Source: Tupaia tana
Taxonomy: Eukaryota; Chordata; Mammalia; Scandentia; Tupaiidae
Direction of reading: 5' to 3'
Assembly: GCA_026018925.1 (NCBI GenBank)
Contig: JAKSZU010000031.1
Coordinates: 12,632,648-12,696,647, forward strand
Length of the DNA: 64,000 nt
Position 1 is the stretch's first letter. The number at the start of each line of letters is the position of its first letter. Below, one piece after another: positions 620-39,125 of the stretch. A program made the position numbers and the translations under genes. Below the pieces are notes generated by a model. The model worked only from the letters and a program-made list of their open reading frames with translations, was not told the DNA's origin and made no database searches.

Positions 620-3600
620 CTGGAAGGGAAGCGGACCCGCCCGTGTGTTCATCCTGCAGAGCTAATGGAGGGCTTTGTATGGTGGCCATTGTTGGCAGGC
701 TGACCACGGGCTGGGACAATGAGCGCAACACACACGAAAATCTCCGTGTTCACACACTTCCCGTTCTGTCAGCACAACGTAGGAAGACCGTGCTGACGTC
801 AACAGGGGTGCACAGTATTTTCTTTGCACACGGGTACACCTGTTCTTTCGGGTGCATCTTGAACGTTTTAAGGAGCTGCCAAAGCATTTTCTTGTTCATT
901 TGCTGTAGGGCATGCGCCAGAGACAGAGAAATGAAAGAGGGCGAGTGTGAGAGCTCCCCCACCCAGGCTATGACCACACAACAATCCTTTCTCCTCCTTT
1001 CTTCTCTTGGGATTTTGTGCACACACACACATCCCAGCATGCATTCTAAGCTGGGGATCAGGACTCAAACTGTTCACCCAGCCATGTGGGATCCAGTGGC
1101 CATAACCACCACACCACAGGTTGGCACATCATTTTTTAGAACATCTGTCCCACTTACTCTCCCATCTGTAATATGCCAGTGTTCCCATCTCCCCACGCCC
1201 TGGCCACCTGTCATTATTTTCCTAGTTTTCATCTGCGTTCTCCCCGCGCAGCGTCTCTGTGGTCCTGACTTGCCTTTCCCTAATGACTCTGGGTGGCTTT
1301 CAACATCTGCTAAGGGGTCCGTAGCTGGCATCTCTTTAGACACTCCACAATCCTGGAAGGCATCTTCACTCACGCCCCCAAAAACATCATCTCAAGGAGG
1401 GCCATCAGGAGGTGAGGTGGTTTCTGGATTCTCACATGGTTGTCTGTGGTTTAAGTCCCGGACCCAGCACCTTTAAACACACAATGAGCACATGCGCATG
1501 CATGCCCCAATACCTTAGAGGAGAATGGGGGAAAGGGATAGCGGCACGGCCAGCCACCCTGAAGGGTGATTTCTCACGTTCCCTCTCTTTTTTTCTCTCT
1601 CTGTCTCTATGCAAGCACACGTGCCTTATAGCAAAAATCTGCCTTAAAAAAAAAAAAAAGGCAACCACGCTAAGCCCCTAGGAAACAGAAGGCGAGCTTC
1701 GCGGAAGCAGACTAGGGGAGTCTAATGGCACACGAAGACCTCCTACCTCCACTGTTGCTAGGACGTGCAACTTGGGGGATATTCCGTTGATCCAGGTTGC
1801 CTCCTGTGGGTACACAACAACGCTCGGTTAAAGGAGACATTTTCCCGTCCCTTCAGAACACCCAGCTAAACGTGTGTGTGCACTGACTCCGCATTGCGCG
1901 TTTCCAGCTCATTTGCTTCTCTGGGCGTCTTTTTTTTTTTTTTGAGAAGTTTTCGCTGTAGGGCGCGTGCGCTCGCCAGACAGACAGAGAGAGACAGAGA
2001 GACAGAAAGCGAGAAATCATCCCCCAGGGGGGATGGCCATGCTGCAATCCCTTCTCCTCCATTCTCCTCTCGGGATCTTGGGCACGCACACACACGCGCC
2101 CGGCGTGAGTTGTAAGCCACCGGGTCTGGGATGCGAACCGCGGTCGACTACGTGGGAGTCCAGCGACATAGCCATTACGCTAACTGCTGGTTCTGGACGT
2201 CTTTACAGATCACCATGGTCCGGCTAAAAAAAAGTCACTTCACCACCCGCAGGAAGACCACAAGACTGAGCACCTAAAAAATAATAATAATAATAAAAGG
2301 CTTGGGCCAGCAGCTGGGGTGAAGTTCAAGGTGCCGGATGCCACAGGAACAGCTGCACGGTGCGTGTCCTGGACCAGGCAGTTGAACCTCACAGTAAGTG
2401 CATGCATGCGTGTGTGCCCAAAGTCCTGAGAGGAGAATGGAGAGAGGACTGTGAGGTGGCCATCCCCCCAATGGGAGCGGGCGAGTTCCAACTTTCCCTT
2501 TCTCTGTCTCTCTCTGGTGAGCACATGTGCCCTAGAGCAAAAAACTCAACATTAAAGCAGTAAATAAAAAAGTAAAAAGGCTCATTTTTATTCCTCAAAG
2601 CTATTGTTTTTAAGTTTTTATTTTTTGAGTTTGTTTCATTGTTGTACATCTTCAGGGGGAACAGCATGGTTTTTCAAAGCGTGTGTGCAGTGTGGTCATC
2701 AAATGAAGGACATGGCAATGTTCACACAGTAACTTGGTCAGCAGTCACCTCTCCTTTCTCCTTTCTTTTTTTAAAAATAATTATTTAATGTTATTTATTC
2801 ATTCATTTATTTTATTTTATTTTAATTTGACCAGAGCGAGACACAGAGAGAATGTGAGAAAGCAAGCCACCAGGTCTGGGACCCAAACCATGGTTGGCCA
2901 CGTGGGAGTGTCCAGCACCTTAACCACCACACCACCTGTTGGTCCCCTCTTCTTTCTTTTCTTTTTAAAGGTTTCGCCATTGGCGAGGGAAAGTGAGAAA
3001 ACCCCCATCCCCACAAAGGGGGATGCCCACGCCACAATCCTTTCCTATATATTCTCCTGTTGGGATCTCGGACGCGTGTGCACACACGCCCACACACATA
3101 CACAGCATTATTTTCAGGTCTACATGTCTGAGACTCTCAGCAAGGCAAGCCACGTGGGAGTCCAGCCCCATAACCACAAGGACATGGGCCGCGTGGGCTG
3201 GCCCGGGATCTCCTCCCTGGCTACGGCTGAGGACTAATTCCATCAAGGGCGACACCACATCTTGTTTACTCCCTCTTCACTGCATGGACAGTTGGGCGGT
3301 TTTACCTTCTGGCTACCATGACAGTGCGCTGCCCTGAACACGTGTGCACAAGATTTTCTTCGCACACAGGGACCCCGACTCTGTCGGTACATACCTAAGT
3401 GAGGGCACTCTATGTTTAACTTTCTGAGGGACTGCCAAGTGTTTTCCTTTTAATTTGCCATGGGGCATGTGCCAGAGATAGACAGAGAAAAGGAAGAGGG
3501 AGAGTGCAAGAGCATCCTCATCCGAGGTGATGGCCACACCACAATCCCTTCGCCTCCATCTTCCTCTCGGGATTTTGTGCACGTACACACACACACACAC

Positions 3601-5593
3601 GCCCAGTGTACTTTCTAAGCTGTGGGATCCAAGACTCGAACTCTGCACCTGGCCATGAGGAACCCAGTAGTCATGACCCCCACGCCACAGGCTGGCCACC
3701 ACCCACCATTTATTTAGCATCTGTCCCACTTTACACTCTCAACGTTAATTGGCAATAGTTCCCGTCACTCCATGCCCTTGGAATCCATTATTTTCCTTGT
3801 TTTTCATCTGCGTTCTCCAGGCGCAGCATCTCTGTGGTCCTGACTGCATTTCCCTAAGGACTCGGGGCGGCTTTCAACATGGGCTAAGTGGTCCGTAGCT
3901 GGCATCTCTTTGAGATTTTCCACAGCCCCAGTAAGCATCTTCAGTCATGTCCTCAAAAACATCATTTCAACCAGACCAGCAGAGGGTGAGGAGTTTAAGG
4001 CCCTAAATTCTCACACGTGTGACTGTGATTCGAGTCTAGAACCGACACCTTGAAATACACATGGAGTGCGTGTGCGTGCGTACCCAAAATCCCGAGACGA
4101 GAGTGCAGGAGAAGGGTGGTGGTGTGGCCATCACCCCCTCAGATTCTGTCTCTCTGTCTCTCAGTCTCCATATAAGGACACGTGCCCTATAGCAACAATC
4201 TCTCTCTCTAAAAAGAAAAGGAACTCAGCAAAATTGCTAGTTAATAAAAGGCGAAGTTAATGGAACCGGACCAGAGGGGTCTAACCGCACACGGAGAGCT
4301 CTCACCTGCACTGGGGCCAGGGTGTGCACACTGGAGCGGGTACAGGTGGTTCTGGTTGACCACTGCAGGTAAGCAAACGCAGTGCACGGTTAAAGGAGAG
4401 GTATTCCCTTCCCCTCGGAGCCCCCGCAAACGCGCACATCCACTGTCTACTGATCGCACGTTCCCAACACCTGTGCTCAGCTGGGCGTCTTTATAGACGA
4501 CCACTGTCTGGCCAGAAAATGACTTAGCACCAGTAGGAAGACCTCAAGATGGAAATAAAAATGTAAAAGGCTCCTATTCCTAGAAGTCTTTCCTTGTTAT
4601 TTGTATGTTTTTGAACATGTAAGAGTTGTACATCTTCACGGCGTAAAATACGGTTTTTAAAGCATGCATTCAGTGTGGTAATCAAATGAAGGATGCTGCT
4701 CTATTCACACAGTGATCTGTGTCAGCGTGTCTTTCCTTTTCCTTTTCTTATTATTTAAGGTTCTTCAATAGGCAAGAGAAAATGAAAAATCACCCTCTAG
4801 GGTAATGGCCACGCCACATTCCCTTCTTATCCATTTTCCTCTGAGAATTTTGGAAATGCATGCCAATGAATCCTACATTGTATTTTAAAAAAAGAGGGAG
4901 AGAGAGAAAGCAACCCCCAGGGAGGACAGCCACACAACAGTCCTCTCTCCCCATTCTCCTCTCAGGATTTTGTGCACGCACACACACACGGCCAGCGTGC
5001 TGTCTAAGCTGTGAGGTCCAGGACTCGAACTGTGCACCCAGCCATGGGGGATCCAGTCGGAATAACCACCATGCCAAGACTGGCCACCACCCATTGTGTT
5101 TAGAGCATCTGTCCCACTTACACCCCCATCCGTAATATCCCAGTGTTCCCATCTCTCCACGCCCTTGCCGACTCTCATTACTTTCCTAGTTTTCATCTGA
5201 TTCTCCCGGCGCAGCGTCTCTGTGGTCTTGACTTGCCTTTCCCTAAGGACCCCGGGTGGCTTTCAACATCCGCTAAGGGGTCCGTAGCTGGCATCTCTTT
5301 AGACACTCCACAGCCCTGGTGAGCATCCTCACTCATGCCTTCAAAAACATCATTTCAAGGAGGACTAGCAGGAAGTAGTAAGGTTCAAGCCCTGGAGACT
5401 CACACGTATAATTGTGGTTCGAGTCTAGATCCGGCAGCTTGAAGTACACACCGAGTGCATGTGCGTGCGTGCCCAAAATCCTGAGAGGAGAGTGTTGGAG
5501 AAGGATTGTGGTGTGGCCATCGCCCCTGTGGGGGTATTTCTCATGATCCCTCTCTGCCTCTCTGTGTCTACATAAGCACACGTGCCCTATAGC

Positions 5594-5630
<37 letters not shown>

Positions 5631-8600
5631 AAAAGAAAAAACTCAGAAAAACTCCTAGGAAATAAAAGATGAACTCATAGAACCGGAGTAGCAGAGTCTA
5701 ACGGCACACAGAGAGTTCTTACCTCCAACGGGGACAGGATGTGTACATAGGAGTCTATACCACATATTCGGGTAGACTTCTGTGGGTCAATAATGAGAAC
5801 GCATGATTAAAGGAGAATACCCCCTTCCCTTCGGAGCCCCCTGCAGAAGGCGCTCATCCACTGTCTGCTGATGTCACGTTTCCAGCGCATTTGCTCATCC
5901 AGGTGTCTTTACGGATGACCATTGTCTGGCTAAAAAAATTATTTAGCCACCTGCATGAAGACCTCAAGACTGAAACAAACAATTTAAAAAGCTCCTGTTT
6001 GATCCTAGACATGATTCGTTTTTGCCATTTTATGTCTTATGTCCATATAATTTTTGTACATCTTCATGGGATAAAGTCTGGAGAGGAGAGTGTGGGAGAA
6101 GGATTGTGGCATGGCCACCACCCCTGGGGGGGTGATGTCTCACGTTCCCTCTCTCTGTCTCTCAGTCTCTATATAAGCACACATGCCCTATAGCAAAAAT
6201 GTCTCTCTCTCTTAAAAAACAAACAAAAAAAGCAACTGAAAAAGACTCCTAGGAAATAAAAGGAGAAGTTCGTGGAACCGGACAGGAGGCGTCTGACCAC
6301 ACACATCGCTCTTACCTCCAGTGGGGGTGGGGAGAGGAGGTCTACAATGGTGTGAAGACCACTGATGCGGGGTGATTCCTGTGGGTGAACAAGGACAATG
6401 CACACTTAAAGGAGAGACACACCCTTCCCTTCGGAATCCCCGGTAACGTGAGCACATCCGCTGTCCATAGATGGCACGTGTCCATCTCCTTTGTTCATCT
6501 GGGCGTCTTCATAGATGACCATTGAGTGGCTAAAACAGTGACTTAGCCCCCAGTAGGAAGACCTCAAGACAGAAACAAAAAACTTGAAAAGCTCTTATTT
6601 GTGCCTAGAAGTTTTTCCTTTTTAATGAAATGTCCTCTGTACGGATCATCGTTGTTCATCTTCACAGGGTCAAGTATAGGTTTTGAAAGCACGCCTTCGG
6701 TGTGATGATGAACCCACGGACGTGGCTATATTCACACAGCGACCTGTGTCAGCATTGCTTGCTTGCTTGCTTTAAGTTTTCCCATAGGCAAGAGAAAAAA
6801 TAAAATCACCCAGTAAGGTTGCCAAGCACAAGGTCAATTTCTAACAATCAGTATCTCCTCGACACCCGCAGCAAGCAACTAGGAACCGTACCAGACAATA
6901 AAGCACCATTCGTAATAGCGATAAACGCCTAACGCATAATATTCAGAAATTGCCTAATGACTTGCAAGAGCTTTATGGGAAAAATTTTAAACTCTAGTTA
7001 AGGACATTTAAAAAACAATAAATGAAGAGATGGACCATGGACAGGTGACTTTACATGACAAAATGACCAACGTCATCTCTAAATGCAACGTTTTACCAAG
7101 CGAAATCACATCAAATTGTAAGGAGCTCCGTAAACTTACATAATATATGAGGAAAAATGCAAAAAGAAATCACCCTCTGGGGGAATGGCTACACCACAAT
7201 CCCTTTGATTCCATTTTCCTGTTAGAATCTTGGAAATGCACACCAACACACCCAGAATGATACTCAAAAAAAGGAGACAGAGAAAACAACCCCCAGGGAG
7301 GACGGCCACACCACAGTCCTCTCTGCTCATTCTCCTGTCCGGGATTTCGTGCACACACACACGGCCAGCGTGTTCTCTAAGCTATGGGGTTCCGGACTCA
7401 AACTGTGCACCAGCCACAGGGGATCCAGTGGCCGTGACCACCACGCCAAGGCTGGCCACCACCCACCATGTTTGTAGCACCTGTCCCACTCACACTCCCA
7501 TCTGTAATACGCCAGTGTTCCCATCTCTCCACGCCCTGGCCACCTGGCATTACTTTCCTAGTTTTCATCTGCGTTCTCCCAGCGCAGCGTCTCTGTGGTC
7601 CTGACTTGCCTTTCCCTAAGGACTCCGGGTGGCTTTCAACATCCGCTAAGTGGTTCGTAGCTGGCATCTCTTTAGACATGCACAGCCCCAGTGAGCATCT
7701 TCACTCACGCCTTCAAAAACATCATTTCAAGAAGTGTCACCAGGAGGGGAGGTGGTGAAGGCCCTGGATTCTGACACGTGTGACTATACTTCAAGTACGG
7801 ACCCTGCAGCTTGAAGTACACGCTGAAGACGTGTGCGTGCACGCCCAAAATCCTGAGAGGAGAGTGTGGGAGAAGGATTGTGGCGTGGCCATCACCCCTG
7901 GGGAGGTGATGTCTCACGTTCCCTCTCTCTGTCTCTCTGTCTCTACATAAGCACACGTGCCCTATAGCAACAAGCACTCTTTCTCAAAAGAAAAGCAACA
8001 AAGCAAAACTCTTAGCAAATAGGCGAAGTTCATGGAACCGGACCAGAGGGGTGTAACCGCACGCGAAGAGCTCTTACTTCCATCGGGGCCAGGATGGACG
8101 CATATGAGTGTGTACCACAGACTCGACTCGACTCCTGTAGGTAAACAGTGACAACGCACAGTTAAAGGAGAAGCACCCCCTTCCCTCGGAGCCCCCTGCA
8201 AAACGAATGCACCCACTCTCTACTGATGTCACGTTTCCAGCGCATTTGCTGGTCGGGGTGTCTTCTTTTAAAATTTTTATTCATTTATTCATTTTTTTTT
8301 CTTTTTGGAGAGGTTTTCGCTATAGGGCGCGTGCGCTCGCCAGACAGACAGAGAGAGACAGAGAGACAGAAAGCGAGAAATCACCCCCCAGGGGGGATGG
8401 TCACGCCGCAATCCCTTCTCCTCCATTCTCCTCTCGGGATCTTGGGCACGCACGCACACGCGCCCAACGTGAGTTTTAAGCCACCGGGTCCGGGACTCGA
8501 ACCGCAGTCGACTACGTGGGAGTCCAGCGACATAGCCATTACGCTAACCGCTGGTTCCCGTTTATTCATTTTTTTTAATTTGACCATAGAGACACACAGA

Positions 8601-11600
8601 GAAACAGAGACAGAGAGAGAGAGAGAAAGCAAGCCACCATGTCCAGGACTTGAACCGTGGTTGACCATGTGGGAGTGTCCAGCACCTTAACCACCACGCC
8701 AGCTGCTGGTCCTGTCTGAGTGTCTTTATAGATGACCCTTGTCTGGCTAAAAAGTGACTCAGCCCCCAGGAGGAAGACTTCAAGACGGAGACAAAAACTT
8801 GAAAGGCTCATATTTGCTCCTAAACCTTCTTTTTTTGAATGTCTTATGTACATATCATTGTTTTACATCTTCACAGGGTAAAGCATGGCTTTTGAAAGCA
8901 TGCATTGGGTGTGATAATGAAACCAAGAATATGCTATATCCATGCAGTGACCTGTGTTAGCATTACTTGCTTTCTTTTTTTCTTACTTTCTTTCCTTTTC
9001 TGTTTTTTGAGAGACTTTTGCAATACGGTGCGTGTACTCTCCAAAGACACAGAGAGAGAAAGAGAGGAAGAAATCGCCCCTTTGGAGAATGGCCTGGCCT
9101 CAATCCCTTCTCCAACACCCTTCTCTTGGGATTATGGAGACACAGCACACATACCCAGAATGTTTTAAACTGCCGTGTCCAGGACTCGAACTGAGTTCAA
9201 ATACACCAGAGTACAGCAACATAATCATTATGCCATCTGCTGATACCCCCCTCCTTTTTTTTTTCTTTTTTAAAGGTATTTGCCTTGGGCGAGAGAAAAT
9301 GAAAAATCATCCTCTGGGGGAATGGGCATGCCACAATCCCTTCTCCATTTTCCTCTCAGAATCTTGTATCTGCACATCAACTCACCCAGCATGACATTAA
9401 AAAAATAAAAAAGAGGGAGAGAGAGAAAGCGATCCCCAGGGAGGACAGCCACGTAACAGTTCTCGCTCCTCATTCTCCTGTCTGGATTTTGTGCACGCAC
9501 ACACGTGTGGCCAGTGTGCTGTCTAAGCTGTGGGGTCCTGGACTCAGACCGTACATCAGCCATGGGGAATTCAGTTGCCATGACCACCACGCCAAGGCTG
9601 GCCACCACCCATCACGTTTACAGCATCTGTCCCTCTTACACTCCCATCTGTAATATGCCAGTGTTCCCACCTCGCCACGCCCGTGCTGACGGTCATTACT
9701 TTCCTAGTTTTCATCTGATTCTCCCGGTGCAGCGTCTCTGCGGTCCTGACTTGCCTTTCCCTAAGGACTCCGGGTGGCTTTCAGCATCCGCTAAGGGGTC
9801 CGTAGCTGGCATCTCTTTAGACACGCACAGCCCTGGTAAGCATCCTCACTCACGCCTTCAAAAACATCATTTCAAATGAACCCATTGAGAGTGAGGAGAT
9901 TAGGGCCCCGGATTCTCACACGTGTAACTGTGGTTCGAGTCTAGACCCGGAAGCTTGAAATACACGGCGAATACGTGTGTGAGCACGCCCAAGATCCCGA
10001 GAGGAGAGTGCGGGAGAAAGGACTGAGGCGTGGCCATCGCCCCTGGGGGTGATGTCTCACGTTCCCGCTCTCTGTCTCTCTGCGCGTACGTAAGCACACG
10101 TGCCCTGTAGGAAAACATCTCTCTAAACAGAAGGCAGCAACACAAAAGCCCTAGGAGACAAACGGTGGACCAAGGAACCAGGTAGAGGGGTCTCACTGCA
10201 CACGGAGATCTCTTACCTTCGGGGCCTGGAGGTCTACACTGGAGTTCATACCACGGATTCAGGTTCACTCCTGCGGGTAAACAGCGACCGTGCACGGTTA
10301 AAGGAGAAACATGCCCTTCCCTTAGAGCCCCCTGCGAACACGCACAGCAACCGCCTACTGATTTCCCGTTACCATCGCGTTTGTCCTCTGGGTGTCTTTA
10401 TAGCTGGCGTCTCTTTAGACACTCAACAACCCCCATTTTCACTCACGCCTTCAAAAACATCATTTCAAGGAGGGATAGAACGAAGTGTGATTTTTTCATC
10501 CCTGTGACCCTCTCTCTCGGGATCAGCAGTTGGCATAATGGCTATGTTGCTGGACTCCCGTGCAGTCGCCTGCAGTTCGAGTCCCAGACTCAGTGGCTTT
10601 AACCCACGCCGGGCACATGTGCGTACGTGCCCAAGATCCTGAGAGGAGAATAGAGGAGGGATCGCAGTGTGGCCATCCCCCCCGACGGGCGATTTCTCAC
10701 TATGATTTCTTTCTGTCTCTTTGTCTTTTTGGCGAATGCAAGCATCCTATAGCAAAAACCTCCAAAAATAAATAAATAAAAATAAATAAATTAAATTAAA
10801 TTAAAAATATCTCTCTGTAAAAAGAAAAGCAACTAAGCAAAATTCTTAGAAATTAAAAAGCGAACTTCATGGAACCAAATTAGAAGAGTCTAACTGCCCA
10901 CGGAGAGCTCTTACCTCCACTGGGGGCAGGACGTCCGCATTTCAGTGCATACCATGGATTTGGGTTGGCCCCTGTGGGTTAACAGAGACAATGCACGGTG
11001 AAAGGAGAGACACACCCTTCCCTTCGGAGCCCCCTGCAGAACGCACGCATCCGCTGTCTATGCATTTCACGTGTCCGTCCACCTCATTTGTTCATTGGGG
11101 TGTCTTCATAGATGACGATTGTCTGGCTAAAAAATGACTTAGCCCCCAGCAAGAAGATCTCAAGACTAAAATAAAAAATTCAAAAGGCTCATATTCATTC
11201 CTAGACATTCTTTTGTTTCTATCTTATGTACACACAATTGTTTTACTTCTCGTGGGCTAAAGTATGGCTTCTGAAAGCATGCACTTGCTGTGATAATCAA
11301 ACCAAGGACATTGCTGTATCCACGCAGTGACCTGTGTCAGCATTTCTGTTGTTCTTTTTTTTTTCCTAAATGTTTTTGCCTAGGTGTGTGTGTGTTGGGG
11401 GCGGGGGACGGATGGCCACACCGCCATCCCTTCTTCTCTGTTTTTCTATCAGAATCTTGGAAATGCACGCCCACACACCCAGCATGATATTAAAAAAAGA
11501 GGGAGAGAGAGCAACCCCCAGGGCGGACGGCCACACAACCGTCCCTTCTCCCGTTCTCCTCTCGGGGTCGTGTGAGTGTCAAGCTCCCAGGGCCAGCGCT

Positions 11601-14296: not shown

Positions 14297-14328
<32 letters not shown>

Positions 14329-15011
14329 TCTGGTGAGCACATGCAACCCTATAGCAAAAATCTCCAAAAGGAAGAAAGAGAAGAAAGAAAAGGATGGAAT
14401 ACACTACACATTGCAGAAGTTGTGCTGCTTGGAGATCTGTGGTTGAACTTTGGCTCTCCTGCAAAGAGAATAAATTCTTGGGAGCACTTTTCTAGGGAGC
14501 TGGGTTGCTATGGAACACCTCTGTGTGTACAACTTCAGCCCTTGTATTGATGTGGGTACAGTGTCTCCTGACAAATGCATTTTGGGGGGTCCATGCACTG
14601 TGCAAAATCTAAGCACAACATCAAAGAGCAGAAAGATGGAGCTGAAGGGGGAGCTCTCTATGCAAGGATCTATCCCTGAACATTGTATGCCCACAAACCA
14701 CCATCTCCGCCTTACAACTGTCCTTAGACAAGATAAATAGGAAAGGCCGTCACAAAAGCATCTGAATACAATCTTTTCCTTCCTAAGAATCAACACATCT
14801 CAACTTGTTTCAGTTGACTACTTCATTCTCAGGAGTCGCAATGTTAAGATGAAACCCCCACCACCACCGCCAAAAAACATTTGCTGGTCAAATCCCACAC
14901 TATAGAATTTCATTAAAATTCCTTAACAAGGGGCCGGCAAGTGGTGTGGTAATTAAGGGCACTGGACTCTCATATAGTCAACCGTAGTTTGAGTCCCAGA
15001 CCTGGCAGCTT

Positions 15012-15048
<37 letters not shown>

Positions 15049-18000
15049 ATCTCTCTCTTTCACTCTGGCCTCTCTCGGGTCAAATTAAAATAAATAAATA
15101 AACAAATAAATAAATAAATAAAGTTAAATAAAATAATTCTTCAGAAAAGAATTCCTTCATTCAGTCTCCCAAAGAACCAACCAGCCAAACAAACAAAAAG
15201 AAGTTATTCCTGGGGTCTGAGAGAGACAAAGCACAAGTAAATGTTGAAGTTCTTGGCATAAACTATTCAGATGATTCTAATTTGCAAAAAATAACACTGG
15301 CACATATGGAAAAGTTTACTTTTTTTTTTTCATCAACGATACCACCCTATGGGCAAAACTAATCTTTGGTAAGCTTTCCCCAGGATGAACTTAAGTGTTC
15401 ACTCTTTTTTTACCATATGAAAATAGCCAGAACTGGGTCATTGGGGTTGTTTTTTGGACCCAGGTATTTTATATCAGAAATTTATATCACGACCTATATT
15501 TCCCATCCACCCAGTGGTGTGTAAACCACCCAGTAAAGCAGAGCACTTTTTAAATGCATGAGACACACATGGGTCAGAAACAAGGAACACAGTTACTACC
15601 TAAATGCACAAGAAGAGCTCTTACCCACGTTGTAGCCAGGTTGGATAGAAGTGACTTGATTCTGTTGAGCCAGGTTGACTCCTGTGGATAAACAACCACA
15701 GTGCATGGTTAAAGGAGAAATATACCCTTCCCTCTGGAGCACCCAGCCAAATGAGCACATCACCTGTCTACTGATTTCACATTCCCATCCCGTTTGCTCA
15801 TCTGGGGTCTTTATAGATTACCATTATCTGGCTAATAAACATCTCATAGCTACCGGCTTAAAGACCTCAAGACTGAAACACTAATAATAATTTTAAAAAA
15901 GAAAGATGGGGCCAGCAGGTAGCATGGAGTTTAAGGTGCTGCATTCCATAGGCCTGGCTGCATGGTTCAAGTCCTGAACAAGGCAGTTGAAAATCATGGT
16001 CGGTGCATGCATGTATGTGGCAAAAATCAAGAAAGAGGATGGAGAAGGCATTGTGGCATAGCCATTCCCCCTGGGGGGAGGGGGTGAATACTCAATTTCC
16101 CTCTCTCTCTCTCTTTCTCTCTCTCTCTCGCACATGTGCCCTATAGCAAAACAAAAAATATATAAGCAAATAAAAAGTTTAAAAGACTCATCTTGTAGCT
16201 TGAATTTTTTTGTTAATTTTATGTCTTATGTACATTTAATTGTTGTACATCTTCACACAGTCAAAGAGGGTTTTTCAAAGCATGCATTTGGTGTGATAGT
16301 CAAATCAAGGTTATTGTTATACTCACACAGGAATCTGTGTTAGCATTTCATCCTTTTTTTTCTATTAATACTGAGGTGAGGGAAAGCGAGGAATCACCTC
16401 TGATGCGGGGTTGGGGGGAGATGGCCATGCCATAATCCCTTCTTCTCTGTTCTCCTCTCAGGATCTTGGGAATGCACACACATGCACCCAGCATGATATT
16501 CAAGCCACCAGGTCTGGGACTCGAACCATGGTCAGCCAATAGGAAGTCCAGAAACTTAACCACCACACCACCCGCTGGCCCTAGGAGTTCCTCCCTTGTT
16601 AAGGCTAATCTTTCACTCTATGGCTCGACCACATCTTGTTTATTCACTCATCACAGGATGGACAGTTGGGTGGTTTACCTTTGGCTACCATGACTACTGT
16701 GTTGCCCTTAACACATGGGCACTAGATTTGCGCTGCACACGGAAACCCCAATTATTTTGGGTACATACCTAAGAGAGGTCATTCCATCTTGAACTTTCTA
16801 AGGATCTGCAAACCATTTTATTTTTAATTTGCTGTAGGGCATGTGTCAGAGACAGAGAAATGAGAATGGGAGAGTATGAAAGCACCACTACAATCCCTTT
16901 TTCTCCATTCTCCTTTTGTGTTTTTGTGCACACACACACATACCCAGCAGGCTTTCTAAGCTGTCCGGTCCAGGACGCACATAGGGCACCTAGCACATGG
17001 AATCCAGTTGCCATGACCTCCATGCCAAGGCTGGCCACCACCCATGGTGTTCATAGCATCTGTCCCACTCACACTCCCATCTGTAATACGCCAGTGTTCC
17101 CATCTCTCCACGCCCTGGCCACCTGGCATTACTTTCCTAGTTTTCATCTGTGTTCTCCCAGCGCAGCATCTCTGCGGTCCTGACTTGCCTTTCCCTAAGG
17201 ACTCCGGGTGGCTTTCAACATTGGCTAAGTGGTTGATGAGGAGGTTAAGGCCCTGGATTCTCACCCCTGTGACTGTGGTTTGAGTCTGCCTACACCCAGT
17301 AGCTTGAAATGCATGCCAAGTCCTGTGCGTGCATGCCCAAAATCCCAAGAGGAGAATGCAGGAGAAAGGACTGTGGTGTGGCCATGGGCCCTGTGGAGGG
17401 ATTTCTCACGTTCCTTCTCTCTGTCTCTCTGTCTACATAAGCACTCGTGCCCTATAGCAACAATCTGTCTCTCTAAAAAGAAAAGCAACTAAGCAAAGCT
17501 CCTAGGAAATAAATTAGTCAAACTGCATGGAACTGGATTAGAGAAGCCTAAGAGAACAAGAAGAGCTCTTACCTACAACGGGCCCAGGGTGTACACATTG
17601 GACTGGATACAACTGATTCGGGATGACGCCTATGGGTGAACAGCGACAACGCATGGTTAAAAGAGAAACACACACTCCACTTTGGAGCCCCCTGCAAAGC
17701 AAGTGCATTTCACGTGTCCATCTCATTTGCTCACCTGGGTGTCTTTATAGATGACCATCGTCTGGCTAAAAAATTACTTAGCCCCAGCAAAAAAGACCTC
17801 AAGACCGAGACAAAAAATTTAAAAGGCTCATTTATGTTCCTTTTTAATTTTATGTGTTTCATACATATAATAGTTCTATATCTTCGTGGGTTAAGTATGG
17901 TTTTTCAGGGACCAGCAATTGGCGTAATGGCTATGTCGCTGGACTTCCATGTAGTCAACCACGGTTCGAGTCCTGAACCTGGTGTCTTAAACTCACGCCG

Positions 18001-19734
18001 GGCGTGTGTGCGTGCGTGCCCAGGATCTCGAGAGGACAATGGAGGAGAAGGGATTGCGGCGTGGCCATCCCCCCTGGGGGGTGATTTCTCGCTTTCTGTC
18101 TCTCTGTATTTCTGTCTTTCTGGCGAGCACATGCCCCCTATAACAAAACCTCTCCCCCCACAGAAAAACATGGTTTTTCAAAGCATACATTCAATGTGAT
18201 AATGAAGACAAAGATATTGCTATATTCACACAGCAACCTGTGTCTTCTTTCTTTCTTTCTTCTTTCTCTTTTTTTATTTAATGTTTTTGCCACGAGACAA
18301 AATGAAAAATCACCCTCTAGGGGGATGGTCACATCACAATACCTTCTTCTCCATTTTCCTCTGAGAATCTTGGAAATACCAGCAACACACTCAGAGTGAT
18401 ATTCAAAAAAAAGAGGGGCAAAGAGAAAGTGACCCTCAGGGAGGATGGCCACACCATAATCCTCTCTCCTCCATTCTCGTGTTGGGATTTTGTGCACGCA
18501 CACACACATGGCCAGTGTGCTGTCTAAGCTGTGGGGTCCTGGACTCCAACTGTGCACCCAGCCATGGGAGATTCAGTTGCCATGACCACCATACCAAGGC
18601 TGGCCACCACCCACCATGTTTATAGCGTCTGTCCCACTTACTCTCCCATCTGTAATACGCCAGTGTTCCCATCTCTCCACACCCTGGCCACCTGGCATTA
18701 CTTTCCTAGTTTTCATCTGCGTTCTCCCAGCGCAGCGTCTCTGTGGTCCTGACTTGCCTTTCCCTAATGACTCCGGGTGGCTTTCAACATCCGCTAAGGG
18801 GTCCGTAGCTGGCATCTCTTGAGACACGCACAGCCCCAGTGAGCATCTTCACTCACCCCTCCAAAAACATCATTTCAAGGAGGACCAGCAGGAGGTGAGG
18901 TGGCAAAGGCCCTGGATTCTCACACGTGTGACTGTGGTTCGAGTATGGACCCAGCAGCTTGAAGGACATGCCGAGTGCATGTGCGTGCATGCCCAAAATC
19001 CCAAGCGGAGAGTGTGGGAGGACTGTGGCGTGGCCATCGCCTCTGGGGGTGATTTCTCACGTTCTCTCTCTCTGTCTCTCTGTCTCTACATAAGCACACA
19101 TGTCCTATAGCAAATATCTCCCTCTCTAAAAAGAAAAACAACTAAGCAAAACTCCTAGGAAATAACAGGCAAACTTCCTGGAACCGGGCAGGAGGAGTCC
19201 AACCACACATGAAGAGCTCTTACCTCCAGCTGAGATGGGAAGTGAGCATTTGAGAGGATACCAGCGATTCGGAGCAACTCCTGTAGGCAAACAACGACAA
19301 TGCGTGATTAAAGGAGAAATATACCCTTCCCTTCGGAGCCTCCTGCAAAACAAGCTCATTAACAAGTATTTATTTCATGCTTCAAATGCATTTGCCCATC
19401 TGGGTGTCTTTATAGATTACCATTGTCTGGCTAAAAAATCACTTAGCCACCCACAGGAATACCTGAAGACTGACACACACACAAAAAAAAAAAAAAATGT
19501 AAAAGGCTCATTTTAATTCTTAGACCTTATTTTTCCTTTAATTTTATGTCTTATGCATATATCATTTCTGTACATCTTCAAGGGGTAAAGCATGGTTTTT
19601 GAAAGCATGCATGCCATGTGATAATCAAACCAAGGATATTTCTATATTCACACAGTAACCTGTGTCAGCATTTCTATCCTTTCTTTCTCTTTCTTTCTTT
19701 CTTTCTTTCTTTTCTTTTCTTTTCTTTTCTTTTC

Positions 19735-19767
<33 letters not shown>

Positions 19768-20429
19768 TTTTGAGAGTCTTTTGCTATAAGGTGCATGCAT
19801 TCTCCAAAGACACAGAGAAAGAGAGACAGGGAGCAAGAACTCACCCCCCCCCCACCTTGGAGGATGGCCTTGCCTAATCCCTTCTCTTCTATTCTCCTCT
19901 CAGGATTATGGGGACACAGCACACGTGCCCATTATGAGTTTTAAGCTGTCAAGTCCAGGACTCGAATCGCAGTCGGTGACATGAGAGTCAAGCAATGTAA
20001 TCATTACATCATCTACAGGTCCCTCCTTTTTTTTTTAAAAAAAAAGAAAGGTATTTACCGGAAACCAGCAGTTGGCGTAATGGCTATGTCGCTGGACTCC
20101 CACGTAGTCGACCGCGGTTCGCATCCCGGACCCGGCTTAAAACTCACGCCGGGCGCGTGTGTGTGCGTGCCCAAGATCCCAAGAGGAGAATGGAGGAGAA
20201 GGGATTGCAGCGTGACCATCCCCCCTGGGGGGTGATTTCTCGCTTTCTGTCTCTCTGTCTGTCTGGCAAGCGCACACGCCTTATAGTGAAAACCTCTCCA
20301 AAAAAACAAAAAAAAAAGGTATTTACCATGGGCGAGAGGAGAATGGCCATGCCATAATCTCTTCTTCTCCATTTTCCTCTGAGAATCTTCAAAGTGTATG
20401 CCAATGCACCCAGCATGACATTCACAAAA

Positions 20430-20463
<34 letters not shown>

Positions 20464-23400
20464 CAACCCCCAGGAGGATGGCCACAGAGCAATCCTCTCT
20501 CCTCCATTCTCCTCTCAGGATTTTGTGCAAGCACACACACGTGGCCAGCGTGCTTTCTAAACAGTTGTGTCCTGGACTCAAACTGTGCACCCAGCCATTT
20601 GGGATCCGGATTCCATGACCACCACGCCAAGGCTGGCCACCACCCATCGTGTTTAGAGCATCTGTCCCACTTACACTCCCATCTGTAATGCGCCAGTGTT
20701 CCCGTCTCGCCACGCCCCTGCCGATGGTCATTACTTTCCTAGTTTTCATCTGTGTTCTCCCAGTGCAGCGTCTCTGTGGTCCTGACTTGCCTTTCCCTAA
20801 TGACTCCAGGTGGCTTTCAACATCCGCTAAGTGGTCCGTAGCTGGCATCTCTTTAGACATGCACAGCCCCAGGGAGCATCTTCACTCACGCCTTCAAAAA
20901 CATCATTTCAAATGCACCAGCGGGAGGTGGTACAGTAGTTAACGCCCTGGATTCTCACATGTGTGACTGTGGTTCAGGTCTAGACCCGACAGCGTGAAAT
21001 ACATTCTGAGTGCATGTGTGTGCATGCATGTCCAAAATCCCGAGAGGAGGCTGCTGGAGAAACGATTGTCGCGTGGCCATCACTCCGGGGGATGACTTCT
21101 CACGTTCCTTCTCTCTGTGTCTCTGACTGTATATAACCATACATGCCATATAGCAAGAATCTCTCTTTCAAAAAAGAACTAAAACATTAAGCAAAAGTCC
21201 TAGCAAATCGACAGTGACTTTCTGGATCTGGACTAAAGGACTCCAACTGCACAAGAAGAGCTCTTACCTCCAGTGGGGACAGGTTTTGTACACTGGTATG
21301 AAGACCATCGATTCTGGTAGACTCCTATGGGTAAACAGCAACAGCGCACAATTAAGGAGAAACGTACCCTTCCCTTCCGAGTCCCCTGCAAAATGAGCGC
21401 ATCCATTGTCTGTTGACTTCCCATTTCCATCTCATTTGCTCATCTGAGGTCTTTATAGATGACCATTGTTTGGCTAAAAAAAATGACTTAGCCCCAGCAG
21501 GAAGACCTCAAGACTGAAACAAAAAATTTACAAGGCTCATCCTTGTTCCTAGAAAGACTTCCTTTTTAATTTTATGTCTTCTGTACAGATAAGAGTTGTG
21601 CATCTCCACGAGGTAAAATATGGTTTTTGAAAGCATGCATTCACTGTGAACATCAACCCAAGGATATTGCTATATTCACACGGTGACCTGTGTCAGCATT
21701 TCTTTCTTCCTTTTTAAAATTTATTGTTATTTTTATTTAAGTTTTTCCCATAGGCAAGATAACGTGAAAAATCACCCTCTGGGGGAAATGGCCACACCAC
21801 ATTCCCTTCTTCTCCATTTTCCTGTCAGAATCTTGGAAATGCAGGCCAATTCACTCAGCATGATATTCAAAAAAAATAGGGAGAGAGAGAAAGCGACCCC
21901 CAGGGACAACAGCCACACCACAGTCCTCTCCCCCTCATCTCCTGTCAGGATTTTGTGCACGCACACACACGTGGCCAGCATGCTTTCTACACTGTGGGGT
22001 CCTGGACTCAGACTGTGACCCAGCCACGGGGGATCCAGTGGCCATGACCACCACGCCAAGGCTGGCCACCACCCACCATGTTTGTAGCATCTGTCCCACT
22101 TACACTCCCATCTGTAATACGCCAGTGTTCCCATCTCCCCACACCCTGGCCACCTGGCATTACTTTCCTAGTTTTCATCTGCGTTCTCCTGGCACAGCGT
22201 CTCTGTGGTCCTGACTTGCCTTTCCCTAAGGATTCTGGGTGGCTTTCAACATCCGCTAAGTGGTCCGTAGCTGGCATCTCTTTAGAGACTCCACAGCCCT
22301 GGTGAGCGTCCTCACTCACCCCTTCAAAAACATCATTTCAAAGAGGACTAGCAGGAGGTGGTGAGGTTAAGGACCTGGGTTCTCACACATGTGACTGTGG
22401 TTCCAGTCTAGACCCGGCAGCTTGAAATACATGCCAAGTGTGTGTGCGTGCGTGCCCAAAATCCCAAGAGGAGAGTGTGGAGAAAAGGATTCTGCAGTGG
22501 CCATGACTCCTGGGGGGGGGGGGGTGATTTCTCATGTTCCCTCTCTCTTTCTGTCTCTATATAAGCACACATGCCCTATGGCAAAAATCTCCCTCTCTCC
22601 AATGAAAGGCAATTAAGAAAAGCTCCTAGTTAATAAAGACGAACTTCATGGAGTCAGATAGAGGAGTCTAACTGCACATGAAGAGCTCTTACCTCCGCTG
22701 GCGGCAGGGAGCATACAGACAAGTGGATACCATGGATTCAGATTGACTCCTGTGGGTAAACAATAACAAGCATGGTTAAAGGAGAAATATTCCTGGGACC
22801 AGCAGTTAGTGTAACGGCTATGTCGCTGGACTCCCACGTAGTCGACTGCGGTTCGCATCCCGGACCCGGTGGCTTAAAACTCACGCCGGGTGTGTGTGCG
22901 TGCATGCCCAAGATCCCAAGAGGAGAATGGAGGAGAAGGGATTGCAGCATGGCCATCCTCCCTGGGGGTGATTTCTTGCTTTCTATCTCTCTGTCTCTCT
23001 CTGTCTATCTGGTGAGCGCATGCACCCTATAACAAAAACCTCTCAAAAAATAAATACATAAATAAAGGAGAAATATTCTCTTCCTTTTCGGAGCTCCCTG
23101 CAAAGCGAGCATACCCACTGACTGTTGATTTCACGTCTCTATCTCATTTGCTCTCTGGTGTCTGTATAGATGACCATCGTCTACCTAAAAAATTACTTAG
23201 CCACCAGCAGGAAGAACTCAAGATAGAAACAAAAAATGTACAAGGCTCATAATTTTCCTAGTGATATGGAGCAACCTGAGACTATAACCTCATGAAACTT
23301 CTGTTCTGATATGGAGGCACTTGTGAGAAACCTTGCAGCCCATGGCTGCTAGCTGCTTGGGCTTTCTGTTCCCCCCATGAGCTAGCTGCCTCTGTCCTGA

Positions 23401-29400: not shown

Positions 29401-32400
29401 AGCTAGAGGCCTTGAGCACGCTGAATTCCCTTCTTCTCTGACAGACACTGAGCCCCTTCTCTGATAGGACGCTCCAAGCATGCTGATACTGCCCCTCCTC
29501 AATCCTCAGCGTAATGGCTATGTCGCTGGACTCCCATGTAGTTGACTGCGGTTCGAGTCCCGGACCCGGTGGCTTAAACTCACGCCAGGCACGTGTGCGT
29601 GCATGCCGAAGATCCCGAGAGGAGAATGGAGGAGAAGGGATTGCGGCGTGACCATCCCCCCTGGGGGGTGATTTCTCGCTTTCTATCTCTCTGTCTCTCT
29701 CTGTCTGGAGAGCGCACACGCCCTATAGCAAAAACCTCTCCAAAAATAAAAAAAAAAAGACTGTGTCCAACTCTCAGCTGGGGCCAGAGATTCAGAGTAT
29801 GAACTCTTCCATGCCTGCAGACATAATAAAACAGTTCTCTTATCTCTCTGAGTGCTGTTTATTCATTCCTTAGCGTCCGGTTTTCTCCAACACTAGACAT
29901 TATGTTTTCTTTCATTTTATGTCTTATGTACATATAATTATTGTACATCTTCACTAGGTAAACTATGATTTTAGAAAGCATGCATTCAGTGTGATAATGA
30001 AACCAAGGATATTGCTATATTCACACAGTAACCTCTACCAGCATTTCTTTCTTTCTTCTTTCTTTTTTAATTTTGAGAGATGTTTGCTATATGGTATGTG
30101 CATTCTCCAAAGACACACAGAAAGAAAGAGAGCGCAAATTACCTATAATGGAGGACGGCCTTGCCACAATCCCTTCTCCTCCATTCTCATTTTAGGATGA
30201 TGGGGACCCAAACACACACACTGTTTTAAACAGTCGAATCCAGGACTCAAACCACAGTAGGCTACGTGGGACTCCAGCAACATAAACATTATGCCATCTG
30301 CAGGCCCCTCCTTTTTTTACAAAAAGTAATTTGCTATGGGCGTGAGAAAATGAAAAATCACCCTCTGGGGGGATGGCCACACCACAATCCCTTCACATTT
30401 TCCTTCTCAGAATGTTGTAAATGCATGCCAATGCACCCATCATGATATTGAAAAAAAAGAGAAAGAAAGAGAAAGTGACCCCCTGGGAGAACAGCCACAC
30501 AACAATCCTCTCTCCTCCATGCTCCAGTTAGGATTTTGTGCACGCACATACACATGGTCAGCGTGCTCTCTAACCTGTTGGGACCAGGACTCAAACTGTG
30601 CACCCAGCTGTGTGGGATCCAGTTGCCATAACCACCATGCAATAGGCTGGCCCACCACCCAGCATCTGTTCCACTTTCCAATCCCGTCTGTAATACGCCA
30701 GTGTTCCCACCTCTCCACGCCCTGGCCACCTGGCATTACTTTCCTAGTTTTCATCTGCGTTCTCCCAGCGCAGCGTCTCTGTGGTCCTGACTTGCCTTTC
30801 CCTAAGGACCCCGGGTGGCTTTCAACATTCGCTAAGCGGTCCGTAGCTGGCATCTCTTTAGACACTCCACAGCCCCGGTGAGCATCTTCACTCACGCCTT
30901 CAAAAACATCATTTCAAGGAGGACCAGCAGGAGGTGAGGTGGTTAAGTCCCTGGATTCTTACACGTGTGACTCTGATTCAGGTCTAGACCTGGCAACTTG
31001 AAATACACACAGAGTGCATGTGCGTGCACGTCCAAAATCCCTAGAGGAGAGTGTGTGGGAAAAAGGGCTGTGGTGTGGCCATCAGGCCTTGGAGGTGATT
31101 TCTCACATTCCCTCTCTCTGTCTGTCTCCATATAAGCACATGGGCCCTATAGCAACAATCTCTCTCACTCTCTCTCTCTCTCTCTCTCTCTCTCAAAATA
31201 AAAGCAACTAAGCAAAACTCCTAGGACATAAAAGGTGGACTTCATGGAACCAGACAGAGGAGTCTAACCGCACACAAAGAGCTCTTACCTCCACCGGGGC
31301 CAGGAGGCACACACTGGAGTGTATACCGCTGATTCGGGTTGACTCCTGTGGGTAAACAAGGACAACGCATGATTAAAGGAGAAACGTACCCTTCCCCTGG
31401 AGCCCCCTGCAAAGCGAGCACATCCACTGCCTATGGATTTCACGTTTCCACCTCATTTGCTCATCTGGGCGTCTTCATAGATGACCATCGTCTGGTTAAG
31501 ACAATGACTTAGCCACCAGCAGGAAGACCTCAAGACTGAAGGAAAATTTTAAAAGGCTCATTTTTATTCCCAGAAGTATTTCCTTTTAATTTTTATGTAT
31601 TTTGTACATTTAATAGTTGTACATCTCCATGGAGTAAAATATGGTTTTCGAAGGCATGAATTCGGTGTGATAACAAAAAAAAAACAAGGATATTGCTATA
31701 TTCACACAGTCACCTGTGTCAGCATTCTTTTTTTCTTTCTTTTCTCTTTTTTTTTTTTTATGTGAAAGAAAATGAAAAATCACCATCTGGGGGAATGGCT
31801 ATGCCACAATCCCTTCTCCATTTTCCTTTCAGAATCCTGGAAATGCACACCAGTGCACCCAGCATGATATTCAAATAAAGAGGGAGAAAGAGAAAGCAAC
31901 CCCCAGGGAGGACGGCCACACCACAGTGCTCTCTCCTCCATTCTCCTGTTGGGATTTTGTGCACGCACACACACATGACCAGCGTGTTTTCTAAGCTGTC
32001 GGGTCCTGGACTCCGACTGTGCACCCGGCCATGGGGGATCCAGTTGCCATGACCACCACACCTAGGCTGGCCACCACCCGTCATGTTTGTAGCGTCTGTC
32101 CCACTTACTCTCCCATCTGTGATACCCCAGTGTTCCCATCTCTCCACGCCCTGGCCACCTGTCATTACTTTCCTAGTTTTCATCTGCGTTCTCCCAGTGC
32201 AGCGTCTCTGTGGTCCTGACTTGCCTTTCCCTAAGGTCTCTGGGTGGCTTTCAACATTGGCTAAGGGGTCCGTAGCTGGCATCTCTTTAGAGACTCCCCA
32301 GCCCGGGGAAGCATCTTCACTCACCCCTTCAAAAACATCATTTCAAGGAGGACCAGCAGGAGGTGAGGAGGTTAAGACCCTGGATTCTCACACGTGTGAC

Positions 32401-35400
32401 TGTGGTTCGAGTCTAGACCCAGAAGCTTGAAATACATGCCAAGTGCATGTGTGTGTATGCCCAAAATCCTGAGGGGAGAGTGTGGGGAAAAGGATTGTGG
32501 TGTGGCCATCGCCCCTGAGGGTGATGTCTCACGTTCCCTCTCTCTGTCTCTCTGTCTCTATATAAACACACGTGCCCTCTAGCAAAAATCTCTCTCTCTC
32601 TAAAAAAAGGCAACTAAGCAAAACTCCTAGGAAATAAAAGATGAACTTCATGGAACCGGACAAGAGGAGTCTAACCGCACATGAAGAGTTCTTACCTCCA
32701 CCGGGGCCAGGACGTCCACACTGAAATGTATTCCACGGATTTGGAGCAACTCCTGTGGATAAACAAGGACAATGCATGATTAAAGGAGAAATAGTCCCTT
32801 CCTCTTGGAGCCCCCTGCAAAACAAGCACATCCACCGTCTACTGATTTCACGTTTCCAACTCTGTTCATCTGAGTGTGTTTATAGATGACCGTTGTCTGG
32901 CTACAAAAATTACTTATCTCCCAGCAGAACGACCTCAGGACTAACATAAAAAATTTTAAAAACTTGTATTTGTACCTAGACATTATTTTTTTATGTCTTA
33001 TGTACATATAATTGTTTTACCTCTCATGGGGTAAAGTATGGTCTTTGAAAGCATGCGTTTGCTGTGATAATCAAACCAAGAATACTGCTATATTCACACA
33101 GGGACCTGTGCCAGCATTTCTTTTGTTTTATTTAATTTATTTTATTTTATTTTATTTTATTTTATTTTTTGAACGTTTTTGTCATAGGCGAGGGAAAATG
33201 AGAAGTCACTTTCTGTGGGCGGGGGGGAGGAGATAGCCACACCACAATCCCTTCTTCTCCGTTTTCCTCTCAGAATCTTGGAAATGCATGCAGACGCACC
33301 CAGCTTGATATTTAAAAAAGAGGGAGAGACAGACAGGAACCCCCAGGGAGGATAGTCACATGACAATCCCTTCTCCTCTGCTCTCCTCTAGGGATTTTGG
33401 GTGTGCGTGCACACACATATGGCGTGGGTTTCAAGGCTTCAGGTCTATCACTCGATCTGTGGTCAGCCACGTGGGAGTCCAGCGACATAATCACCAGACC
33501 ACCTGCTGAACCCTTTGGTCACTGTCTTCTGAGCCATTCAGCAGGCGGGAAGCAGCCTCAGCCCCTGGACTCCTGCATCTCCGTCCCAGGGTTGCTAAAG
33601 AGGTGCCCACACCCTCCCTCCCTCCGGTCTGGGTTCACAGATTCCCCACAGCCACGTGTCACGGCACTGCACGCACCTCAGGAGCTGGAATTCCAAATTC
33701 TCAGATGGCCAATGACAGTCACCACGTTGGACCTCGCTCATCCAAGCAAGTCCAGGATCCCCTAAGCAATGGCTCTGCCATCTCCTCTGATGAGGGCGCC
33801 CTGCCCCTCCCGGGCATCGTCCCAGATCTCCCACAGCCTGTGCTGTCTCTCCTCCCGCCCTCCCTGAAACGCTCTTGCCCAACACAGGTAGGTGGAACCT
33901 GGCTGTTATCAGGACGGAGATGCACTTCTGCAGATAGGATCCCGCCCAGAGCTGGGACTGCAGCCAGGGCCAGCTCCAGTCGCTCTGGAAATCACCGACA
34001 ATGGGTTACTTCCCCCTTCTAAGTCATCCCGTGCCTTGCTCCTTGCACATGCGTGTGCGTAGCTTTGACAGTTCCAGATAACCTCCGAGGGGAGGCAGGA
34101 AGAGAGGAGAGGGCGCGGAGGAAGTGAGCCTGTCGGTTTGAGGCTTTGCAGGGTTTCAGGGTTCACTGCACACAACACTTGCTGGCAGTGTGAGTCACAC
34201 CCACGGCAGAAGGCTGGGCTCACTCAAAATCGTTAGAAAACAGGGAGGACTCCAGCCCGCACAGAAACAGCCCCTCATCCTTGTGCCCAGACACGCTCTC
34301 CCCACCGGAATCAGGGCACACGCGTTGCAAGGGTCTCCATGTGCCTTTAGCGAGTGGCCCGGGGTGGGAGATGACCCGGTAGAGGATGCTAACTCTCGGG
34401 GCTCCATCCCAGGGGTGGCCTGGTCACAGGTAATTGCTTTTGAGGGGTATCTTTCCCCACTCAGAGCAAGGGATGTGTTTCTCCTGTGTCACGCTTTTGC
34501 TTACTGAACTCGGCAGTTTTTAATGAAACCCTCATGTTCCGATTTCTCCCCGAGGAGACAGCACGCTCGTTTTGTCTTGGGGTTCTCACACTGGCCCTCA
34601 CTGCTGGGTCTCGGGGGAGGTGGGCTTAAAATACTTCAGGCTGGTGGGAGGGACCATAATCATTACCATGCAACCAGACGTGTCCCCAAAGCCCTCCTGC
34701 TCTGGGACCTTAAGAAAAAAATCACACTATGGGACCAGCAGGTGACATGGTGGTGAAGGCACTGGATTCCCGCACGGCCGAATACGGTTCAAGTCCCAGA
34801 CCTGGTGGCTTGATTTCTCTTTCTCCCTCTCTCTTTCAAGCATATGTGTCCTATAACAACATTTAAAAATAACAATAAGTTAAATAAAATAAAATAAATA
34901 AATAATTGTCGGGACTAGCAGATGGCATAATGGTTACATCGCTGGATTCCCACACGGCTGACTGTGGTTCGAGTCCCCAGGCTTGAAACTCACGCCAGGT
35001 GTATATGCATGTGTGCCCAAAATCTTGAGAGGAAAATGGCAGAGAAAGGATAGCAGCGTGGCCCTCCCCCTGAGGGGTGATTGCTCTCTTTCTCTCTTTC
35101 TCTGTCACTCTGACTAGTGCATACATCCTATAGCAAAAGTCTCTCTAAAATAAATATTTAAAAAGGAGAGAGAAAGATACATTGAATGGCCCTTGGAAGA
35201 ATTCTTCTATCCCCTGGAGGAACCAAACCCTTGCTAGATTCAAATTTCATCCCCACAAGATTCCAAGATGGTTGCTACTGGAGTTTTCTTCTCCTGAAGT
35301 TCTAAGTCTGCTCAGACCCACGGTCACGTTGGCAGACAACCACTCGCAAGGCAGAACGCAGTGCTGTTCAGGGCAGTAAGAGCTCCACTGTGGAAGCCAG

Positions 35401-39075: not shown

Positions 39076-39125
39076 GAGGACTCCTGTGCCGAGAATAGTG
39101 TGAATCACAGAGCAAGCATTCGGGG

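Follow-up and report, generated by a model that had tools for sequence, protein, structure and literature searches.

An intact array of 14 mini-exons in a tandem XG duplicate between CD99 and XG of Tupaia tana

A stretch of 64,000 nucleotides (nt) from the genome of Tupaia tana (assembly GCA_026018925.1, contig JAKSZU010000031.1 (C442), positions 12632648-12696647; hereafter the window) carries 14 tandem copies of one small exon on its minus strand. XG is a classic blood-group gene whose function is poorly understood, and the array lies in a tandem duplicate of it, here termed XG-A, between CD99 and the canonical XG gene. All 14 exons have retained their splice sites and reading frame, and the extent of this preservation departs from neutral decay. 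We consider it probable that XG-A is a functional duplicate, in which exon 1 would be spliced to the array exons to encode an ectodomain of up to 267 residues, with selection acting on splicing and frame.

The exon array and its place in an XG duplicate

Tandem symmetric exons are homologous exons that share one phase and carry splice sites of their own, and all of these features were found in the 14 copies between positions 32752 and 1747. Each copy has an AG acceptor and a GT donor, is phase 1 on both sides and has an open frame with zero stops. Twelve copies measure 57 nt, one 54 nt and one 63 nt, which gives 267 residues in total (12x19+18+21). The copies encode a diverged 19-residue repeat with the consensus GVNPNQWYTLQCVHPGPGG. 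Scored against a donor-site consensus, their donors range from 78.8 to 93.3. An earlier note on this DNA had reported 14 minus-strand copies of 54, 57 or 63 nt, in one phase and stop-free, that would add about 267 residues if spliced in; the copies and their summed length were reproduced by the pattern and profile searches. The copies, some of which are named below by their upper coordinate, are as follows.

Array exon 1: 32696..32752, minus strand, GVAPNPWNTFQCGRPGPGG
Array exon 2: 31289..31345, minus strand, GVNPNQRYTLQCVPPGPGG
Array exon 3: 22693..22749, minus strand, GVNLNPWYPLVCMLPAASG
Array exon 4: 21268..21324, minus strand, GVYQNRWSSYQCTKPVPTG
Array exon 5: 19224..19280, minus strand, GVAPNRWYPLKCSLPISAG
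Array exon 6: 17573..17629, minus strand, GVIPNQLYPVQCVHPGPVV
Array exon 7: 15625..15681, minus strand, GVNLAQQNQVTSIQPGYNV; the most divergent copy, 24/57 bases differing from the consensus
Array exon 8: 10915..10971, minus strand, GANPNPWYALKCGRPAPSG
Array exon 9: 10217..10270, minus strand, GVNLNPWYELQCRPPGPE; 54 nt
Array exon 10: 8078..8134, minus strand, GVESSLWYTLICVHPGPDG
Array exon 11: 6316..6378, minus strand, GITPHQWSSHHCRPPLPTPTG; 63 nt
Array exon 12: 5723..5779, minus strand, EVYPNMWYRLLCTHPVPVG
Array exon 13: 4306..4362, minus strand, VVNQNHLYPLQCAHPGPSA; GTGAG donor
Array exon 14: 1747..1803, minus strand, GGNLDQRNIPQVARPSNSG; GTAGG donor

The pattern search caught 13 of the 14 copies, and copy 1803-1747, with its GTAGG donor, was recovered by the profile search. 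The profile covered the exon and its flanks and was run (nhmmer --max, E<=10) on the window and the fetched flanking DNA. It matched the 14 array copies in the window, three places in canonical XG (two strongly and one at E 5e-7) and nine in an inverted XG-like locus. A further weak match in the window, at 23094-23063 (E 0.0073), covered model positions 2-32 and corresponds only to the upstream flank of copy 22749; two others lay at 43361-43271 (E 3.8) and 27944-27918 (E 7.2). No overlooked decayed array copy was detected in the window by this search at this threshold. The idea that the intactness is a product of selective reading was rejected, as no decayed copies had been omitted.

The array is flanked by CD99 on one side and by canonical XG on the other, and canonical XG exon 1 lies downstream of it. 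The exons of both genes were placed using human XG and CD99 sequences. CD99 exons were located at 59.8 kb, at 50.7 kb and above the window on the minus strand, and canonical XG begins 12.3 kb below the window, also on the minus strand and in the same orientation as the array. A location inside canonical XG was rejected on these positions. The earlier note had placed the array in XG; the gene is indeed of XG type, but it is the duplicate and not canonical XG, and the exon 1 that the note probably meant (37701-37641) is exon 1 of XG-A.

After filtering of repeats, the window region was found to be collinear with canonical XG over the 5' flank, exon 1, a piece of intron 1, the GDDH-exon region (86%) and the 3' flank, where the pieces show 77-91% identity. 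The 61 nt of exon 1 from the ATG to the donor align without an indel and differ at 14/61 bases (MKPWRRLSRYLLLCFLVHTP in XG-A versus MEPWWGLSLSVLLCFVMHAR in canonical XG), and the 1.65 kb around it are 78% identical. Two canonical XG exons (GIYPKPPYPPQPGRPDNSG and GIYPKPPYPPQPGHPDNGG) are homologues of the array exons and align with them in the same frame, the best among the matches listed being 76% over 170 nt of exon and flanks. These alignments assign the array to a tandem duplicate of XG that has an intact signal-peptide exon of its own and is flanked on its 5' and 3' sides by XG-like sequence. The features of XG-A outside the array are listed below, in window-based coordinates, where negative numbers lie below the window.

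38534..39329, minus strand: XG-A 5' flank, 77% over 808 nt to -11332..-10568, upstream of canonical XG
37641..37701, minus strand: coding part of XG-A exon 1, MKPWRRLSRYLLLCFLVHTP-G, an intact signal-peptide exon with the phase-1 donor CAG-gtaaga
33382..34253, minus strand: intron upstream of array exon 1, homologous to part of canonical XG intron 1 (-25122..-24247; 90% over 879 nt)
551..701, minus strand: homologue of the GDDH exon (canonical exon GGDDHVAYGNPQ) with flanks, 87%; frame open, GT donor lost

Splice sites, reading frame and residues

Changes were counted against the consensus of the 14 copies. A total of 449 of 2526 flank bases and 195 of 795 exon bases differed from it, and none of the 56 splice-dinucleotide bases did. 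The flanks contain 27 indels, 23 of which are not a multiple of three; the exons contain two (-3 and +6), both in frame. At the flank rate of 23 frame-breaking indels per 2526 nt, the 795 exon nt should hold about 7.2 frameshifts, and zero were observed. A neutral simulation, using the flanking-intron spectrum and each copy's own rate and treating the copies as independent (4000 runs), yielded means of 10.2 changed splice bases, 6.1 stops and 9.8 broken copies out of 14, whereas none of the three was observed. The probability of having no stop was 0.00125, and an outcome with zero broken copies occurred in 0/4000 runs.

Two flank controls, both independent of the simulation model, pointed in the same direction. 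Among the AG/GT sites of the flank consensus with letters in at least 12 copies, 1/121 was preserved in every copy with letters at that place. The second control used overlapping 57-nt windows of the flanks without a stop in the consensus, again with letters in at least 12 copies; 0/703 of them were open in all copies (mean 49%, best 92%). With copies 15681 and 1803 excluded, the figure for the downstream flank was 0/508 (mean 52%). Eleven unit bodies, counted by eye, each contain an intact exon, and exons 6378, 10971 and 15681 are intact despite a truncated body. Selection on splicing and frame is therefore well supported, and the argument of the earlier note that neutral decay cannot account for the intact splice sites and frames was borne out.

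On average, the residues encoded by the array are under little constraint. The mean pairwise proportion of differing bases (p) was 0.378 in the exons (91 pairs), compared with 0.297 in the 122 nt upstream and 0.295 in the 74 nt downstream; the exon value exceeded that of the upstream flank in 75/91 pairs and that of the downstream flank in 78/91. The copies have thus diverged, as the earlier note held, but somewhat further than the quarter to a third that it gave. Codon positions 1, 2 and 3 showed p of 0.348, 0.445 and 0.351. The earlier note had proposed an estimate of dN/dS (the ratio of non-synonymous to synonymous substitution rates) across copies; the corresponding ratio of pairwise proportions (pN/pS) was 0.93, or 0.80 without copies 15681 and 1803 and 0.98 with the two XG exons added. 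This value rejects strong purifying selection on the residues. IQ-TREE codon models, with more parameters than sites (16 sequences of 21 codons), returned no omega in their output.

For the 13 copies without 15681, mean p was 0.16-0.30 in the downstream intron bins and 0.362 in the exon, and the upstream bins climbed from 0.25 to 0.365 at 120-165 nt, about level with the exon. The local flank rate predicts 89.3 non-synonymous codon changes, and 115 were counted (P=0.00025); synonymous changes, at 30 versus 25.4 predicted, were not clearly in excess. An exon mutation rate 1.4-fold faster would fit both classes, with 118.1 non-synonymous changes expected. Because this removes the non-synonymous excess, diversifying selection on the array exons is only possible. 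Two residues are conspicuously conserved, Pro15 in 14/14 copies and Cys12 in 12/14; Trp7 is present in 9/14. Intron triplets were also overdispersed (1.9-2.7 versus 3.4 for exon codons); for this reason the residue-level patterns lend weak support, with Pro15 and Cys12 taken as hints only, and a claim of site-wise positive selection based on the large heterogeneity among codons was dropped.

Array growth and related loci

Self-comparison revealed diverged units at spacings of ~1.4-2 kb and more. Larger blocks are also repeated within the array, namely 10803-12623 and 32584-34441 (77% over 1.9 kb), and 14366-15607 and 36440-37421 (73-81%). The array seems to have grown by block duplications, which included pieces of XG intron 1, together with single units. 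A tree built from 750 nt of intron gave very long branches to copy 15681 and to one XG exon. The mammalian substitution rate is about 2.2e-9 per site per year; from this and an intron p of ~0.25 we infer that the array units are tens of millions of years old, an age at which close relatives should carry the array.

Several other repeats were observed in the window. A SINE-like (short interspersed nuclear element) dispersed repeat at 22795-23054 splits the upstream flank of exon 22749 about 45 nt before its acceptor, and the exon is intact. For a related element at 20060-20319, a 501-base query returned 2547 first-look candidates in the genome (2.95 Gb, 1198 contigs), of which 40 were scored; its tRNA-like head may resemble that of colugo SINEs. 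Positions 28561-29017 hold a 153-nt tandem repeat in three copies (95%), within the stretch that the earlier note probably termed a provirus. GC-rich minisatellite-like repeats lie at 40964-42107, between CD99 and XG-A, and similar ones seem to occur near -71 kb (chance tblastn matches). In CD99, just above the window (65292-67716), one ectodomain exon is tandemly duplicated with a unit of ~1.24 kb and 77% identity.

The inverted XG-like locus lies on the plus strand of the same contig at 12335318-12378370, about -297 to -254 kb from the window start. Besides an exon 1 (MEPWWSLSLSMLLCFLIHAQ) and a DFGLTHALNNP exon, it holds nine copies of the array type. Inspection by eye showed 6/9 of these copies with AG acceptor, GT donor and open frame and 3/9 broken, the lesions being a deleted acceptor region, a donor changed from GT to CT and a donor changed from GT to AT. 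Arrays of this type can therefore decay, and the difference between 3/9 broken copies here and 0/14 in the XG-A array has P=0.047 in a one-sided Fisher test. The inverted locus also holds two matches to CD99-like ectodomain exons and a CD99-like transmembrane exon, and it is possibly a mixed XG/CD99 paralogue. Further out, at about -309.8 kb (12322.8 kb on the contig, plus strand), a 93% match to the XG GDDH exon with its GT donor present hints at yet another XG copy.

The exons of canonical XG, which also include YPKP exons, were placed as follows.

-12255, minus strand: exon 1 (signal exon), MEPWWGLSLSVLLCFVMHAR
-26062, minus strand: DFDLADALDDP exon
-29022..-29078, minus strand: exon GIYPKPPYPPQPGRPDNSG, homologous in frame to the array exons
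-29709..-29765, minus strand: exon GIYPKPPYPPQPGHPDNGG, homologous in frame to the array exons
About -32.9 kb, minus strand: exon DIYPKPKPPSYPQPGNPGHGG
-36141, minus strand: GYYND exon
-37.5 kb, minus strand: G6 exon
-43.3 kb, minus strand: GDDH exon
-47.1 kb, minus strand: transmembrane exon

The transmembrane exon seems to have a GC donor (AACG|GCAAGT), at about -47.2 kb, as judged by eye.

Explanations of XG-A and their significance

Several observations speak against a functional XG-A. Its GDDH-exon homologue, the exon part of which spans about 619-584 as counted by eye, has ATCAGG at the donor, versus GTAAGG in canonical XG. The DFDLADALDDP and GYYND exons had no match in the window (for the former at E<=0.01), and the G6 exon had only one of 41 nt at 62.0 kb, outside the array; canonical XG and the inverted locus both have an exon of DFDLADALDDP type. 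The sequence is N where the XG-A transmembrane exon would be expected, and a genome search with the XG transmembrane exon yielded a single match in the readable genome, that of canonical XG. The joined protein had no homologue at E<=1 in a protein set whose mammalian content was not control-checked. To these are added the pN/pS ratio close to one, the furthest upstream bin (120-165 nt), which reaches the exon level, the overdispersion of intron triplets, and the independence of copies assumed in the simulation, given that the intron tree holds some supported groups on mostly short inner branches.

Other searches with the predicted product were also negative. The joined signal peptide and 14 repeats matched zero Pfam families at E<=10, CD99L2 (PF12301) included, and the joined repeats had no match in a PDB search. 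Canonical XG joined from its exons reached 29.2 bits against PF12301 (E=1.3e-6), itself under the 34.4-bit cut-off. A motif search for the XG C-terminus had no match in the 3' regions of XG and XG-A or in the window end.

In the strongest alternative, which we regard as doubtful, exon 1 and the array of XG-A would form an alternative 5' module of canonical XG. A transcript would start at 37.7 kb, include array exons and skip XG's own first exon, a start exon that presumably lacks an acceptor. It would then join, in phase 1, the canonical exons about 28 kb further on, including the transmembrane exon. The boundaries of the array exons, exon 1 and the canonical DFDL exon are all compatible with phase 1, the orientation is the same, the only transmembrane XG exon of the readable genome is the canonical one, and the last downstream exon seen in XG-A has no donor. 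Against this, flanks homologous to the 3' region of XG separate the array from canonical XG, and a transmembrane exon belonging to XG-A may be hidden in the N stretch. The missing donor and exons could also be those of a relic, in which array exons that were long spliced and translated now lie in a young pseudogene with a broken 3' part; the broken copies of the inverted sister locus fit this as well. We hold a relic to be unlikely. Decay throughout the divergence of the copies would have broken about 9.8 of the 14, but no lesion was found in the 14 exons and exon 1, so that inactivation would have to be very recent, and the donor loss may simply drop one symmetric exon.

A neutral, satellite-like duplication that was never spliced, its intactness due to chance or selective reading, would agree with a pN/pS near 1, but it is highly improbable: the profile search uncovered no omitted decayed copies, and neutrality is rejected by each of the controls, on splice sites, stops, frameshifts and windows. 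Hardest of all to credit is an assembly artefact, for which no support was found: mean divergence among the copies is ~30% in the near flanks and 38% in the exons, the contig is 14.1 Mb long and the flanks agree with the gene order CD99-XG. A more ambitious proposal, which we rate as rather improbable, takes XG-A to be a diversity-generating surface receptor. At least 14 freely skippable mini-exons, most with one Cys, would then outpace the introns in their coding letters through diversifying selection, with splice sites and frame strictly preserved, and yield combinatorial ectodomains on red cells or elsewhere; a pathogen able to bind proteins of XG/CD99 type might be the driving force.

The explanation that we favour remains a functional XG-A duplicate. 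A tandem XG duplicate would have arisen between CD99 and canonical XG, and a 57-nt exon homologous to XG exon GIYPKPPYPPQPGRPDNSG would have multiplied into at least 14 symmetric phase-1 exons, each full unit carrying ~1.4-2 kb of intron, while homologues of other XG exons went missing. In a transcript from the XG-type exon 1, the signal peptide would be spliced to all of the array exons or to a subset of them. The resulting ectodomain, either secreted or anchored in the membrane, would comprise up to 267 residues in ~19-residue repeats. Selection would keep the splice sites and frame and not most residues, so that the exons diverge freely or under diversifying pressure. The sequence itself shows the duplication, the homology, an intact exon 1 and array, and the departure from neutral decay; transcription, the choice of exons included, a surface location, a function and the direction of change between the parent and array exons are inferred. 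A longer ectodomain with skippable exons is plausible.

XG-A resembles XG and CD99 in its signal-peptide exon with a phase-1 donor, its small phase-1 ectodomain exons, its location adjacent to CD99 in the same orientation and the homology of its array exons to an XG exon. It is unlike XG in that one exon is present 14 times and encodes a repeat with Trp and Cys that are absent from the homologous canonical exons; several XG exons were not found in the window and the transmembrane exon was not seen. According to a 2023 paper, human XG and CD99, with 10 or 11 exons each, are adjacent genes of the same orientation, and XG originated by duplication of CD99 in the amniote ancestor (PMC9957549). Neither an XG exon array nor a second XG gene was described in the titles and abstract openings listed by searches of the open-access literature.

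Tandem exon duplication is a known process, and titin PEVK, nebulin, tropoelastin and the fibrillar collagens contain runs of symmetric repeat exons that are conserved in residues or composition. The XG-A array is like them in having tandem exons of one phase, any subset of which is in frame, and unlike them in that its residues are nearly free whereas its splice sites and frame are kept. The arthropod Dscam exon clusters consist of mutually exclusive exons with known selector sequences. Dscam and the XG-A array are alike in offering many homologous exons with variable residues for a surface protein, as that of XG-A would be; the exons of Dscam are mutually exclusive, whereas the symmetric exons of XG-A need no exclusion.

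The XG-A array is notable for its length, for the gene in which it lies and for exons that stay intact though they diverge more than the near introns. It provides a test within one genome in which selection on splicing and frame can be separated from selection on protein sequence. It is also a warning for annotation, as exons of 54-63 nt with little conserved protein sequence make such arrays easy to miss. The features of the locus suggest that XG-A encodes a long, fast-changing surface protein. If true, a long exon array held open while its residues change would mean that the ectodomains of XG proteins can be rapidly remodelled.

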